DNA of 64,000 nt. Origin: Lachnospiraceae bacterium. Its GTDB lineage: Bacteria > Bacillota > Clostridia > Lachnospirales > Lachnospiraceae. Position numbers and translations under genes: made by a program. How positions within the stretch are numbered: the first letter of the stretch is position 1; each line of letters starts with the position of its first letter. The stretch lies in assembly GCA_017482205.1 (NCBI GenBank), contig JAFUNK010000023.1:1-64000 (forward strand), read 5' to 3'. This document shows, piece after piece, positions 1,685 to 31,766 of the stretch. A model generated the notes under the pieces. That model was not told the DNA's origin, made no database searches, and saw only the letters and a list, made by a program, of their open reading frames with translations.

Positions 1685-1780
1685 ACAGATAAGAATCTGT
1701 TGCACGAAGTGCATTAATATTTGGGCTGACCGAAAGGTCCTGGTCCACCGGCTGGCGGGGATTTACCCCGCCATTTTTAT
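1685..1780 (+). ncRNA. Structured RNA upstream of DUF3800 gene (DUF3800-motif-like candidate)
   Basis: Within 96 bases there are stacked hairpins: ACAGAT/ATCTGT closing AAGA (1685-1700), TGCAC/GTGCA closing GAA (1701-1713), GACC/GGTC closing a GAAA tetraloop (1728-1739), and a 7-bp GC-rich terminator stem (1754-1772) followed by ATTTTTAT. The RNA has its own promoter, ends 19 bases before the DUF3800 start codon, and no plausible coding frame explains the structure. Several 'DUF3800' RNA motifs upstream of such genes have been described by comparative genomics. I cannot verify which class, if any, this belongs to. It could be a cis leader/attenuator or a separate small RNA acting with the protein. 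Confidence 0.6.
1754..1780 (+). terminator. Rho-independent terminator at 3' end of the structured RNA
   Basis: GGCGGGG (1754-1760), loop ATTTA, CCCCGCC (1766-1772), then ATTTTTAT. The stem is the most GC-rich stretch in this AT-rich region. It would end the short RNA before the DUF3800 gene, so expression of the gene needs readthrough, antitermination or another start site. Confidence 0.75.
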
Positions 1781-1798: not shown

Positions 1799-2476
1799 AT
1801 GAAAGAAAAAATCCTTAGTGTATTTATAGATGAATCCGGAGATTTTGGACAATATAATCCGGCATTTCCGAATTACTATGTTGCAATGGTTTTACATAAT
1901 CAGGAAATGGATATTTCAAAGAATATTGAAGCCTTGGAAAGGCAGGTAAGTAATTGGGGATATCCGGAGCATACGATTCACACAGGCCCTTTAATTAGGC
2001 GTGAAAGTGTTTATAAAAATGATTTGAGAGAACAAAGAAAAGCTTTGTTTAATGCATTGTATCATTTTACCCGTCTATTGGATATTCAATATATTTGTCC
2101 GGTGATTAATCAAGGCGATTGTGCAGAAAAATCAAAATTAGCTTACACGGATAAACTGACCAAAGAGATTGCAAATCAGTTGCGTATTAATTATTCATAT
2201 TTTTCAGCCTTTGATAGAATTATTGTTTACTATGACTATGGACAGGTAGAATTGGCACAGATACTGGTATCTGTGTTTAATACTATGTTTTCTAATGTGG
2301 AATTTAGGAAGATAGAGACAAATCAATATAAACTATCACAGGCAGCAGATTTGATTTGTACGGTAGAAGCAATAGCGCAAAAAAATGTATTAACTAAGTC
2401 AGAAAGTGAATTCTTTCATTCAAAGAGTGATTTTAAGAAAAATATTTATAAAAATATCGCAAAGAAGAAATTGTAA
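1799..2476 (+). CDS. DUF3800 domain-containing protein
   Basis: The protein has 225 residues. It begins with the DUF3800 hallmark FIDESGDFG (residues 9-17) and ends with the conserved YKLSQAADLICTVEAI segment, the two regions that define the family. Aspartates in the first motif, in IIVYYDYG and in the late AADL segment are consistent with the RNase H-like fold proposed for the family, but nuclease activity is not demonstrated here. ATG 1799 follows a G-rich ribosome binding site (AGGGGGGCGG) that begins just after the terminator of the upstream RNA. DUF3800 genes are common in accessory regions. The tight link with a structured RNA suggests the protein acts with or on that RNA. Confidence 0.85.
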   Translation: MKEKILSVFIDESGDFGQYNPAFPNYYVAMVLHNQEMDISKNIEALERQVSNWGYPEHTIHTGPLIRRESVYKNDLREQRKALFNALYHFTRLLDIQYICPVINQGDCAEKSKLAYTDKLTKEIANQLRINYSYFSAFDRIIVYYDYGQVELAQILVSVFNTMFSNVEFRKIETNQYKLSQAADLICTVEAIAQKNVLTKSESEFFHSKSDFKKNIYKNIAKKKL

Positions 2477-4650: not shown

Positions 4651-6555
4651 TTACGCACCAATCTCATTACCGGTATAAAGTTGGTAATACTTACCTTTTG
4701 CTTCAATCAGCTGGTCGTGGTTACCACGCTCAATGACTCTACCCTGTTCCAGTACCATAATACAATCGGAGTTTTTGACGGTAGAAAGTCTGTGAGCGAT
4801 AACAAAGGTGGTTCTGCCCTTCATCAGCTTATCCATACCCTCCTGTACGATACGTTCTGTTCTGGTATCAATGGAGGAGGTTGCTTCGTCTAAAATAAGT
4901 ACCGGCGGGTCTGCAATGGCAGCACGGGCAATGGCAAGGAGCTGACGCTGTCCCTGACTTAAGTTTGCACCGTCTTCAATCAATTGGGTATTGTAGCCGT
5001 CGGGCAACTTGTGAATGAATTTATCTGCGTTAGCCAGTTTTGCTGCAGCAATGACTTCTTCATCCGTAGCATCCAGCTTACCGAATCGGATATTTTCCAT
5101 AATCGTACCGCTGAATAAATGGGTATCCTGTAAAACAATTCCTAAAGAACGGCGCAAGTCAGCCTTTTTAATCTTGTTGATATTGATGCCGTCGTATCTG
5201 ATTTTACCGTCCTGAATATCATAAAAACGGTTAATCAAATTGGTAATGGTGGTCTTACCTGCACCGGTGGAGCCTACAAAAGCAATCTTCTGACCGGGAG
5301 TTGCAAACAAATCGATATTGTGAAGTACCATCTTTTCATCGGTGTAACCAAAGTCTACATCATCAAATACCACATCACCTAAAAGTTCCACATAGTCTAC
5401 GGTTCCGTCAGCTTTGTGAGGATGCTTCCAAGCCCAGCGTCCGGTTCTTTCCTCGGTTTCCACCAATTTGCCGTCCACTTCTTTTGCATTTACTAAAGTA
5501 ACATAACCTTCATCCACTTCTTCTTTTTCATCCATCAGCTTAAAGATACGGTCAGCGCCGGCCATAGCCATAACGATGGAGTTAAACTGCTGGGAAATCT
5601 GGTTAATGGGCATATTAAAGTTTTTATTTAGTGTTAAGAAGCTTGCCAGAGCACCCAGTGTTAAACCGGTGATGTTATTCAATGCAAGGATTGCACCTAC
5701 AATCACGCATACCAGATAACTTAAATGTCCTAACTGACCGTTTACCGGACCCATAATGTTTACGAATTTATTTGCTCTGCTGGCACATTCATATAAATGG
5801 TCATTCAGTTCTTTAAAATCTTTTTTACACTCATCTTCATGGCAGAAAACCTTTACTACTTTCTGGCCATTCATCATTTCTTCGATATAGCCGTTTACTT
5901 TACCCAGATTTTGCTGCTGCTCCATAAAATACTTACTACTCTTACCTAATATTTTACCGGAACAGAAAAGCATAATTGCAATCATCACCAGTGTAACACC
6001 TGTCAAAGGAATACTTAAGATACACATACTGATAAATACGCTGACAATGGTTACCGCACTGTTAATTAACTGCGGAATACTCTGGCTTATCATCTGGCGA
6101 AGAGTATCGATGTCATTGGTATAGATAGACATGATGTCGCCGTGGGCATGGGTATCAAAATATTTAATGGGGAGCTTTTCCATATGTTCAAACAATTCAT
6201 TACGGATGCTTTTCATGGTGCCCTGTGTTACCGTCAATAAGGTTCTTGCCTGTATATAACTACTGACAATACCGATACCATAGAAACATGCCACACGGAT
6301 AATTGCTTGTGCTAAAGGAGTAAAGTCAGGTTTAGCAGCGGTTAACAGTGGAGGCAGATATACATCAATCAGTTTCTGCATAAAGAGAGTACCCTGCAAA
6401 TTTGCAAATACGCTGATAAAAATACAGGCAACTACGATAATACAATGTATTTTGTAGAATCGGAAAACATAACTCATTACCCGTGTAAACAGCTTGCCGG
6501 GGTTTTCAATCTTGGGTTTAGGTCCCATCTGTCTTCTTCCCATAGGTCCTGCCAT
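4651..6555 (-). CDS. ABC exporter subunit with consensus ATPase site (multidrug type)
   Basis: This 634-residue half-transporter has an N-terminal six-helix exporter domain (about 45-340) and a C-terminal nucleotide-binding domain with Walker A GSTGAGKTT, signature LSQGQRQLL and Walker B LILDEATSSID, including the catalytic glutamate. An extra loop of about 60 residues separates the two domains. A longer frame reaches 6651, but ATG 6555 follows GGAGGGC and lies one base after the stop of the upstream subunit. With that partner, which has a degenerate site, it should form a heterodimeric type IV exporter in the membrane. MarR control suggests drug or toxic-compound efflux. Confidence 0.9.
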   Translation of the reverse strand: MAGPMGRRQMGPKPKIENPGKLFTRVMSYVFRFYKIHCIIVVACIFISVFANLQGTLFMQKLIDVYLPPLLTAAKPDFTPLAQAIIRVACFYGIGIVSSYIQARTLLTVTQGTMKSIRNELFEHMEKLPIKYFDTHAHGDIMSIYTNDIDTLRQMISQSIPQLINSAVTIVSVFISMCILSIPLTGVTLVMIAIMLFCSGKILGKSSKYFMEQQQNLGKVNGYIEEMMNGQKVVKVFCHEDECKKDFKELNDHLYECASRANKFVNIMGPVNGQLGHLSYLVCVIVGAILALNNITGLTLGALASFLTLNKNFNMPINQISQQFNSIVMAMAGADRIFKLMDEKEEVDEGYVTLVNAKEVDGKLVETEERTGRWAWKHPHKADGTVDYVELLGDVVFDDVDFGYTDEKMVLHNIDLFATPGQKIAFVGSTGAGKTTITNLINRFYDIQDGKIRYDGININKIKKADLRRSLGIVLQDTHLFSGTIMENIRFGKLDATDEEVIAAAKLANADKFIHKLPDGYNTQLIEDGANLSQGQRQLLAIARAAIADPPVLILDEATSSIDTRTERIVQEGMDKLMKGRTTFVIAHRLSTVKNSDCIMVLEQGRVIERGNHDQLIEAKGKYYQLYTGNEIGA

Positions 6556-30740: not shown

Positions 30741-30770
30741 TTGACTTATATACCTACTATGGAATATACT
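30741..30770 (+). promoter_or_regulatory. Sigma-A promoter of the AbiF-linked RNA and gene
   Basis: TTGACT (30741-30746), an 18-base spacer and TATACT (30765-30770). The expected start, about 30777, lies just before the hairpin at 30783. Confidence 0.65.
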
Positions 30771-30776
30771 AATTTT

Positions 30777-30830
30777 AACAGAACCCGACACGCCTCTCAT
30801 TATGATGCGGACCACGTCGGGTCAATTTTA
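30777..30830 (+). ncRNA. Candidate AbiF-associated structured RNA
   Basis: ACCCGAC (30783-30789) pairs with GTCGGGT (30816-30822), a GC-rich stem in an AT-rich intergenic region. It encloses 26 bases with a possible inner CGC/GCG pairing, and CAATTTTATTATT follows. The element begins right after a good promoter and ends about 25 bases before the Abi_2/AbiF gene. Conserved noncoding RNAs next to abiF genes have been described, including as antitoxin-like partners. Whether this RNA matches those models needs a covariance search. Confidence 0.55.
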
Positions 30831-30847
30831 TTATTAAGGAGAAATGG

Positions 30848-31726
30848 ATGGAAGAACGAAAGAAACATCAACCGCCCTTATCTCTTGATGAACAGATAGC
30901 AAATCTAAAATCACTGGGTCTTATCATCGAGGATGAAAACGAGGCAAAACGAATTCTAAACGATATTTCTTATTTTCGCTTAATCAAAGGTTACAGTCCC
31001 AATTTAAAAGAGAAAAATGGTACATATCACAATTTGGTCACTTTTGATGACATCAAGCAATTATATTTATTCAACGCCAATTTCCGGCAAGCTATATTTC
31101 CACAAATTGAAAAGATAGAAATTAATGTCAGGTGTCGTATTTCTAATTATATCGCTGAAAAATATGGAATATTTGGCTATAAAGATTCAAACAATTTCGT
31201 AAGTCAGAACTATCATCAACAGTTTCTTTTAAATATTAGTCAGGAGTTACATCGTAACGCAAAGTCCCCATTTGTAAAAAATTTTCAGGAAAATTATGAG
31301 GGTGGAGATTTACCCATTTATGCTTTAGTGGAAATATTTAGTTTCGGAACTTTATCTAAATTTTATAAAAACATGAAAAACGAAGATAAAAAAGAAGTTG
31401 CAAGGACTTTTGAAGTAGGGTATCTGTTTTTGGAAAGTTGGTTGGAAGCAATTTCTTATGTACGCAATATCTGTGCCCATTACGGAAGGCTATATAATGC
31501 AAAATTGGTCAAAAGACCATCCATATATAAAGAATATACTGCTAGCGGAATTGTGAATTACAAAGTGTTTGCAGTCTTGTTGTGTATGAAGCAGCTTTTA
31601 AATGGGGATACTCATTGGAATTTGTTTGTGGATGAGGTGGACATGCTTATTGATAAATATGAGGAAGTAGACATTAAAACGATGGGTTTTCCCGATAACT
31701 GGAAGAGGTTGTTGGCGGTAGGATGA
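30848..31726 (+). CDS. AbiF/AbiD-type abortive infection protein (Abi_2, HEPN ribonuclease fold)
   Basis: The 292-residue protein has the Abi_2 layout: LSLDEQIANLKSLGL, then ILNDISYFRLIKGY, FDDIKQLYLFNANFRQAIFPQIEKIEINVRCRISNYIAEKYG, and the HEPN catalytic motif R206-NICA-H211 in YVRNICAHYGRLYNA. HEPN proteins of this type are ribonucleases, and AbiF members are reported to act in phage defence with a noncoding RNA and to be related to Cas13 ancestors. Start ATG 30848 follows AAGGAG; ATG 30844 is out of frame. The gene stands alone, bounded by a strong terminator that begins within its stop codon. Confidence 0.9.
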   Translation: MEERKKHQPPLSLDEQIANLKSLGLIIEDENEAKRILNDISYFRLIKGYSPNLKEKNGTYHNLVTFDDIKQLYLFNANFRQAIFPQIEKIEINVRCRISNYIAEKYGIFGYKDSNNFVSQNYHQQFLLNISQELHRNAKSPFVKNFQENYEGGDLPIYALVEIFSFGTLSKFYKNMKNEDKKEVARTFEVGYLFLESWLEAISYVRNICAHYGRLYNAKLVKRPSIYKEYTASGIVNYKVFAVLLCMKQLLNGDTHWNLFVDEVDMLIDKYEEVDIKTMGFPDNWKRLLAVG

Positions 31727-31766
31727 AAATACCCGGATCGCAGAGTTAGGATCCGGGTATTTTCAT
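31723..31766. terminator. Bidirectional terminator between abiF-like and flotillin genes
   Basis: A perfect 17-bp stem, ATGAAAATACCCGGATC (31723-31739) with its reverse complement at 31750-31766, closes a 10-base loop. The stop codon of the plus-strand gene lies in the 5' arm. Confidence 0.9.

Follow-up and report, generated by a model that had tools for sequence, protein, structure and literature searches.

Contig JAFUNK010000023.1 of a Lachnospiraceae bacterium (assembly GCA_017482205.1), probably a gut-type bacterium, carries a gene for an AbiF/AbiD protein of the Abi_2 family in its first 64,000 nucleotides, hereafter called the window. Directly upstream of this abiF gene, on the same strand and behind the same promoter (recognised by its sequence only), lies a gene for a small abiF-type RNA (Table 1). 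The same RNA also stands alone, as a gene of its own, in many phages where searches found no Abi_2 gene. These stand-alone phage RNAs are what is new here: they are real as sequence features, and we infer a function for them.

Table 1. Features of the abiF locus and of a second RNA-protein pair, with positions in the window.
Feature	Position	Strand	Basis
-35 box TTGACT	30741..30746	+	promoter scan
-10 box TATACT, 3' end 6 nt before RNA; spacing kept in homologs	30765..30770	+	
abiF-type RNA, probable antitoxin	30777..30823	+	Rfam, homolog loci, covariation
T-rich tract directly 3' of RNA stem; possible weak intrinsic terminator	30824..30835	+	
AAGGAG ribosome-binding site	30836..30841	+	read from sequence
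AbiF/AbiD (Abi_2) HEPN protein, 292 aa, probable ribonuclease toxin	30848..31726	+	Pfam, PADLOC, PDB, alignment
HEPN catalytic motif RNICAH, residues 206-211	31463..31480	+	sequence, alignment
Perfect inverted repeat spanning stop codon, arms 31724-31739 and 31750-31765	31724..31765	.	read from sequence
DUF3800-XI RNA, just upstream of DUF3800 gene	1722..1769	+	RF02975 (61.4 bits, E-value 3.7e-11)
DUF3800 protein gene	1799..2476	+	

The abiF product matches the Pfam family PF07751 (Abi_2) with an E-value of 8.3e-52 and 176.6 bits, against a Pfam cut-off of 25.6, and the PADLOC model AbiD with an E-value of 7e-99 and 329 bits; a scan of the same open reading frame (ORF) against NCBIfam gave no match. 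We did not treat the PADLOC name as decisive, because AbiD and AbiF form one group according to the part of PMC12373285 available to us. Residues 9-286 align with the solved PbAbiF (8vz6; PDB sequence match, E-value 2.1e-36), and the protein is by this alignment a near full-length relative. As the earlier sequence-only reading had claimed, it has an R-x4-H motif at residues 206-211. The motif RNICAH fits the HEPN ribonuclease pattern R-[NHD]-x3-H, and R206, N207, C209, A210 and H211 are invariant in all 22 aligned proteins, whose other members are 29-69% identical to it; the third residue of the motif varies. Cas13 (type VI CRISPR) is likewise a HEPN ribonuclease, but has two HEPN domains per chain, whereas the window protein is only 292 aa long and shows a single conserved R-x4-H in the alignment.

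To describe the RNA, we used homologous loci from a scan of genome contigs, namely the best 80 of 351, the closest of which are mostly labelled Lachnospiraceae; the window brings the set to 81. A core pattern composed after inspection of the upstream regions, C[AG]CGCCTCT-N2-10-ATGCGNACCA, was present upstream of the gene in 61 of these loci (60 homologs and the window); between the RNA and the start codon lie 17-29 nt. The hairpin that the sequence-only reading placed at 30783-30822 is real, but its limits were drawn slightly too short: the conserved unit is the longer one in Table 1 and includes a 5' ACAG. It consists of a 5' AACAGA tail, a 7-bp outer stem, a CGC/GCG inner stem, a 2-bp loop closure with one covarying pair, and a GACCA linker.

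For the 20 loci that lacked the pattern, reasons were assigned by reading the sequences. Four have a partial match or a misplaced gene start (L047, L050, L053, L073), in two the RNA is only partly present (L028, cut by the contig end; L054, 3' end only), and four have divergent RNAs that were found at 20.4-39 bits by R1, a model that we built from bacterial cis RNAs only (L074, L075, L078, L083). The remaining ten are Bacteroidota loci with a different hairpin (L070-L072, L076, L077, L079-L082, L084). In L070, L077 and others, this hairpin, CTTACCCCGCTTCCCG...AGGGTAAG, stands just before the AbiF gene and is followed immediately by a long T run, so the RNA stem looks like a terminator itself.

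Covariation, which had been proposed as a check of the RNA, proved strong. In 29 distinct cis RNAs (26 from the homologs and the window, three from further genomes), 98.9% of the cells of a 12-pair structure were paired, compared with 89.4% after shuffling. Double-sided changes occurred at six of the 12 pairs (2.9 in shuffles) and in 40 cells (10.6 in shuffles), and none of 500 shuffles reached any of these three values. Sliding the partners lowered pairing to 25-35%. The six pairs that vary are left free by the pattern, which does fix the inner stem and the loop core. The pair at columns 22-28, within the loop, was C-G in 13 RNAs, U-A in 13 and A-U in three. The unpaired 5' ACAG was invariant in 29/29 although the pattern did not require it; the loop core (CUCU, ACCA) was invariant too, but had been selected by the pattern. 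The window RNA combines the stems and the GCCUCU...GAUGC core, covarying among relatives, with a position upstream of an Abi_2 gene.

A promoter of the form TTGACT-18-TATACT had also been claimed, and the boxes are indeed there. Such matches alone are at chance level in the window (five found, 5.7 expected), but the placement of the -10 box is conserved: a TATAAT-like box with at least 5/6 matches lies 3-10 nt upstream of the RNA in 59/61 cis loci; in 52/61, the box with the best score has its end 6-7 nt from the RNA. From this spacing, the RNA probably begins at the transcription start, at about 30777. At least five of the eight nucleotides after the RNA are T in 57/61 loci, and the stem and T-rich tail may act as a terminator. 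The inverted repeat behind the gene is, as read from its arms, probably a bidirectional terminator; the terminator scan, limited to loops of 8, did not list it, its loop being 10 nt long.

At gathering level, cmscan found nothing at the RNA locus. A permissive run matched RF03085 (abiF) at 30784-30822 with 25.6 bits and an E-value of 0.056, covering model positions 1-37 of 37 with all base pairs standard. The proposed check with an AbiF RNA model gave an end-to-end match that stays under the cut-off of 37 bits, and for this reason we withhold the formal abiF label from the window copy. The cut-off is reached by 4/6 bacterial cis loci and 9/30 phage sources (3/14 and 6/16); through these relatives the window RNA is, by sequence comparison, homologous to abiF RNA, a motif reportedly defined by Weinberg in 2017. 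The Rfam cut-off leaves out some members of the family, among them the window copy. Other sub-threshold Rfam matches, such as Thr_leader, snoTBR6 and miRNA families, were regarded as chance; the miRNA-family matches are spurious and correspond to the perfect inverted repeat after the abiF gene.

The genome to which the window belongs (2.16 Mb, 73.7% complete) contains two detected Abi_2 genes. Scoring 150 of 673 candidates with RF03085 gave two matches (E-value ≤10), both under the cut-off and each immediately upstream of one Abi_2 gene. Model R1 again gave only two matches at an E-value ≤0.001, identical to the RF03085 pair. The second AbiF module comprises an RNA at 4711-4755 and a gene at 4868-5413 (+) of contig C6. 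Its RNA is built differently (CACACCTCT...GTGTCCAATGG) and has viral look-alikes of its own.

Scanning IMG/VR viral contigs for the core pattern gave at least 120 viral stretches (L085-L204), compared with one for a permuted pattern; a looser pattern was short enough for chance matches and was not used. We examined 80 loci in 79 records. The outer stem had 6/6 pairs in 73 of the 80 (best of three registers, one base being fixed by the pattern), and R1 found all 80, in part by construction, because the loci had been chosen by the same core. No PF07751 match was present in 76/79 whole viral records, some of which may be fragments; in the other three, the Abi_2 match is close to the RNA. The pattern was also present in all of the other 40 of these 120 loci, where an ORF check of the fetched stretch found an Abi_2-like ORF in four (one weak, 16.5 bits). 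Of six viral loci searched against PHROGs, three (L087, L156, L236) gave a portal or terminase protein.

The orphan RNAs keep their structure. Among 55 distinct viral orphans, with the pattern-fixed core not counted, 91.8% of cells were paired (75.7% shuffled), 117 cells carried double-sided changes (38.4 shuffled) and the covariation score was 0.427 (0.134 shuffled), each unmatched in 500 shuffles. A tRNA on the same strand stands no more than 200 nt from 26 of the 77 orphans (6.0 would be expected from position in these loci); the 26 include several near-identical copies. A -10 box stands just upstream of 11/77 (about 5% of random positions have one), and a T-rich stretch follows the stem in 48/77. 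ROOL RNAs also occur in phage contigs with an abiF-type RNA and tRNAs (L130, 772-1366, -; L132, 5403-5987, +).

A second pattern, derived from the C6 RNA, matched five viral contigs, each of which also carries another abiF RNA. In L089, L233, L235 and L236 the two RNAs form a tandem with a spacing of about 50 nt; in L234 they are separated. L233 and L235 are nearly identical in sequence. L089 thus carries both RNA types of the window's bacterium. L089 and L236 are related, with 92-93% identity in two flanking stretches and 77% in a third; they share the second RNA unit, while the first is of a different type.

We also searched 50,697 phage records by blastn with short RNA queries and scored the hits with R1. 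Named phages with the RNA include Bacillus phages phiNIT1 (55.5 bits), P59 (48.4) and SBSphiJ (47.0), crAss-like phages cr124_1 and cr7_1 (44), Sulfurimonas phage SNW-1 (40.3), Rhizobium phage RHEph21 (33.3), Enterococcus phages EhiS_268 (31.1) and phiSHEF4 (28.7), Streptococcus phage Javan492 (28.6) and Staphylococcus phages Stau2 (24.3) and Romulus (20.5), as well as the gut phage fragment MT835884 (71.8). R1 gave an E-value ≤0.05 in 13/15 named-phage loci; the Kayviruses K and Sb-1 failed (11.5 bits, E-value 4.1). PF07751 was absent from 14/14 named phage records searched, a set to which MT835884 did not belong. At an E-value ≤1, a 73-nt Stau2 stretch including the promoter matched 261 phage records, of which 248 bear a Staphylococcus name. 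The hairpin is absent from the minimum-energy fold of the Kayvirus stretch, and an alignment by eye shows a compensated inner-stem change between Kayvirus and Silviavirus.

In phage P59, the order is tRNA-Asp, skipping-rope RNA, abiF RNA, tRNA-Pro. Skipping-rope RNA (RF02924) lies within the tRNA arrays that hold the abiF RNA in P59 and phiNIT1 (L224, 2429-2498; L217, 3505-3575), ends 2 nt before the abiF RNA in P59, and is perhaps another phage RNA against host defence. Comparisons with host plasmids gave mixed results. The AbiF RNA of an E. faecium plasmid (L273) has a GCGAG leader and GCC end in common with phiSHEF4 and EhiS_268, while those of E. hirae and E. faecalis plasmids (L271, L272) lack the GCGAG leader, and blastn with these short RNAs found no link between Enterococcus plasmids and phages. 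P59 and the host-species plasmid pBO1 have most of the core in common, but not the outer stem.

The link between RNA and Abi_2 is closer in bacteria than in viruses, and it is not strict there either. Among 291 genomes of the class, 15 of 28 R1 matches had an Abi_2 ORF with them; among 299 of the phylum, seven of ten pattern matches did, whole or broken ORFs included (window counted in both). Ten ORFs near bacterial orphans were scanned; some belong to mobile elements (a conjugation coupling protein in L264, a Mu F-like protein in L255), and the others were RhuM (L245), ordinary or without identification. In L245, whose genome belongs to the same family, the gene directly behind an abiF-type RNA (1501-1547) is of the RhuM family (1559-2554, +), with no Abi_2 there.

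We read the window locus as a two-part, type III-like AbiF toxin-antitoxin module, with a probability of about 0.9. An AbiF RNA antitoxin has already been published, and the window locus, with its protein family, HEPN motif, conserved order of promoter, RNA and gene, and covarying RNA structure, is an ordinary, well-supported AbiF module. The earlier proposal of a protein with its own RNA is upheld by the strong covariation and the sub-threshold but end-to-end match to RF03085. A sigma-A-type promoter would start the transcript, whose first 47 nt would fold into the abiF RNA. The stem and T-rich stretch would probably stop many transcripts and so release the small RNA, and read-through transcripts would serve as AbiF mRNA. 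As in studied relatives, AbiF would dimerise via its HEPN domain and cut single-stranded RNA, the small RNA would bind and silence it, and phage infection would disturb the balance between toxin and RNA, whereupon cell growth would stop. Toxicity, RNA binding, dimer and phage trigger are assigned to the window copy because of its homology to these studied proteins.

Two relatives are close to this scheme, as described in the parts of the papers available to us. C. difficile AbiF is toxic and loses its toxicity on mutation of R202/H207; its RNA, RCd22, has two abiF motifs, terminates early and silences AbiF by direct binding (PMC12373285). That system, from prophage phi027, resembles the window locus in its Abi_2 HEPN protein, upstream abiF-motif RNA and SigA-type promoter at the RNA start. 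It differs in the second motif, a separate terminator and its place in a prophage lysis module (PMC12373285), whereas in the window a single motif is present, the terminator scan gives no separate terminator ahead of the gene, and the neighbours are chromosomal genes, among them flotillin and MBOAT. According to PMC12737573, PbAbiF cleaves single-stranded RNA, is bound by one RNA for each monomer and is the AbiF linked to Cas13. Cas13 is reported to descend from AbiF. PbAbiF-AbiFr (8vz6, Zilberzwige-Tal et al.) is like the window pair in residues 9-286, the HEPN motif and a cis RNA, but Bacteroidota relatives such as L070 and L077 have a differently built hairpin, which R1 did not find.

Several results weigh against the module reading and its extension to phages. 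The folding energy of the window RNA is within the shuffle range (z -0.66), so the hairpin stands out by homology and covariation and not by energy. Further pair types in the 29 cis RNAs do not exceed shuffles (11 compared with 9.7, 108/500), nor does the number of orphan pairs with double-sided changes (7 compared with 6.1, 149/500). The window RNA scores below the RF03085 cut-off, and because the permissive search also gives sub-cut-off matches in 6/14 control genomes, the position of the matches and not their score counts as evidence. The consensus scan for terminators gave no candidate at the RNA. PADLOC gave only generic ATPase and methyltransferase matches on ten ORFs (nine near the locus and DUF3800), so no defence island was seen close to it. 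Finally, no Abi_2 ORF could be detected within loci of up to 3 kb for 13/28 matches in the class and 3/10 in the phylum, and RNA and toxin are thus not strictly coupled even in bacteria.

For the phage copies, an antitoxin-type RNA without the toxin gene is the rule (76/79 viral records, 14/14 named phages). They are best explained as antitoxin mimics that would occupy host AbiF and keep it silent, because they stand alone, conserve their structure, lack Abi_2 and partly occur in exchangeable arrays. On balance we favour a broader proposal: AbiF defence would be common enough that unrelated phages, each independently, counter it with stand-alone copies of the antitoxin RNA. In some, the copies would form tandem, exchangeable arrays covering different AbiF subtypes; in others, they would lie within arrays of tRNAs, whose processing could release the RNA. 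The phages concerned are Herelleviridae (Bacillus, Staphylococcus), crAss-like phages, Efquatrovirus, Autographiviridae and many metagenome phages.

The strongest competitor, which we consider possible though distinctly less probable, is that the phage copies are not mimics but remnants of AbiF modules since lost, or else RNAs that serve some other purpose in phage tRNA arrays. The proximity to tRNAs, the scarcity of own -10 boxes, the existence of bacterial orphans, the presence of skipping-rope and ROOL RNAs in the same arrays and the Kayvirus fold without the hairpin are all consistent with it. Remnants would decay, yet the stems of the 55 orphans are kept by double-sided changes, which weakens that version; the compensated change between Kayvirus and Silviavirus also speaks against it, as do related phages with tandem RNA types in which one unit differs and the other is kept.

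Much less probable is that the window RNA is a cis-acting leader, an attenuator that lowers abiF expression without acting on the protein. Its place in the 5' leader and the T-rich stretch after the stem would suit such a role, and C. difficile RCd22 also works by premature termination; but RCd22 binds AbiF in trans as well (both in the available part of PMC12373285). Moreover, the unpaired 5' ACAG is invariant without having been selected, and in phages the RNA is maintained with no Abi_2 gene nearby. A chance origin of the hairpin in an AT-rich leader, as its energy and sub-cut-off Rfam match might suggest, is made very improbable by conservation in 61 loci, covariation and the second copy ahead of the genome's other Abi_2 gene.

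The mimic reading has a precedent in the pseudo-ToxI of phage PhiTE, which likewise imitates an RNA antitoxin in a phage that lacks the toxin, but belongs to the ToxIN system and gained its activity by repeat expansion, according to the part of PMC3475682 available to us. The orphans described here differ in that they imitate AbiF RNA, look complete singly and occur in many unrelated phages. An abiF small RNA has been reported in the lytic cyanophage S-CREM1, with three other Rfam phages mentioned; the available parts of these papers propose no AbiF neutralisation or decoy role (PMC9964418; PMC12197685). A literature search of listings and selected passages, largely without subscription papers, found no proposal that phage abiF RNAs are AbiF mimics. 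If phages widely make the antitoxin RNA, this would be a natural, sequence-readable RNA counter-defence extending pseudo-ToxI, and would give a role to unannotated phage RNAs. Little is known of what triggers AbiF, the reported ancestor of Cas13, or of how phages escape it.

One published case is suggestive only. A Kayvirus cocktail reportedly failed against an abiF-positive S. aureus isolate, which was killed after Silviavirus Romulus had been added (PMC12791408, conference abstract). The Silviavirus copies score 20.5 and 24.3 bits with R1, the Kayvirus copies 11.5; both genera carry a version of the stretch.

The window also holds a second small-RNA-plus-protein pair, in which a DUF3800-XI RNA stands just upstream of a DUF3800 gene (Table 1).
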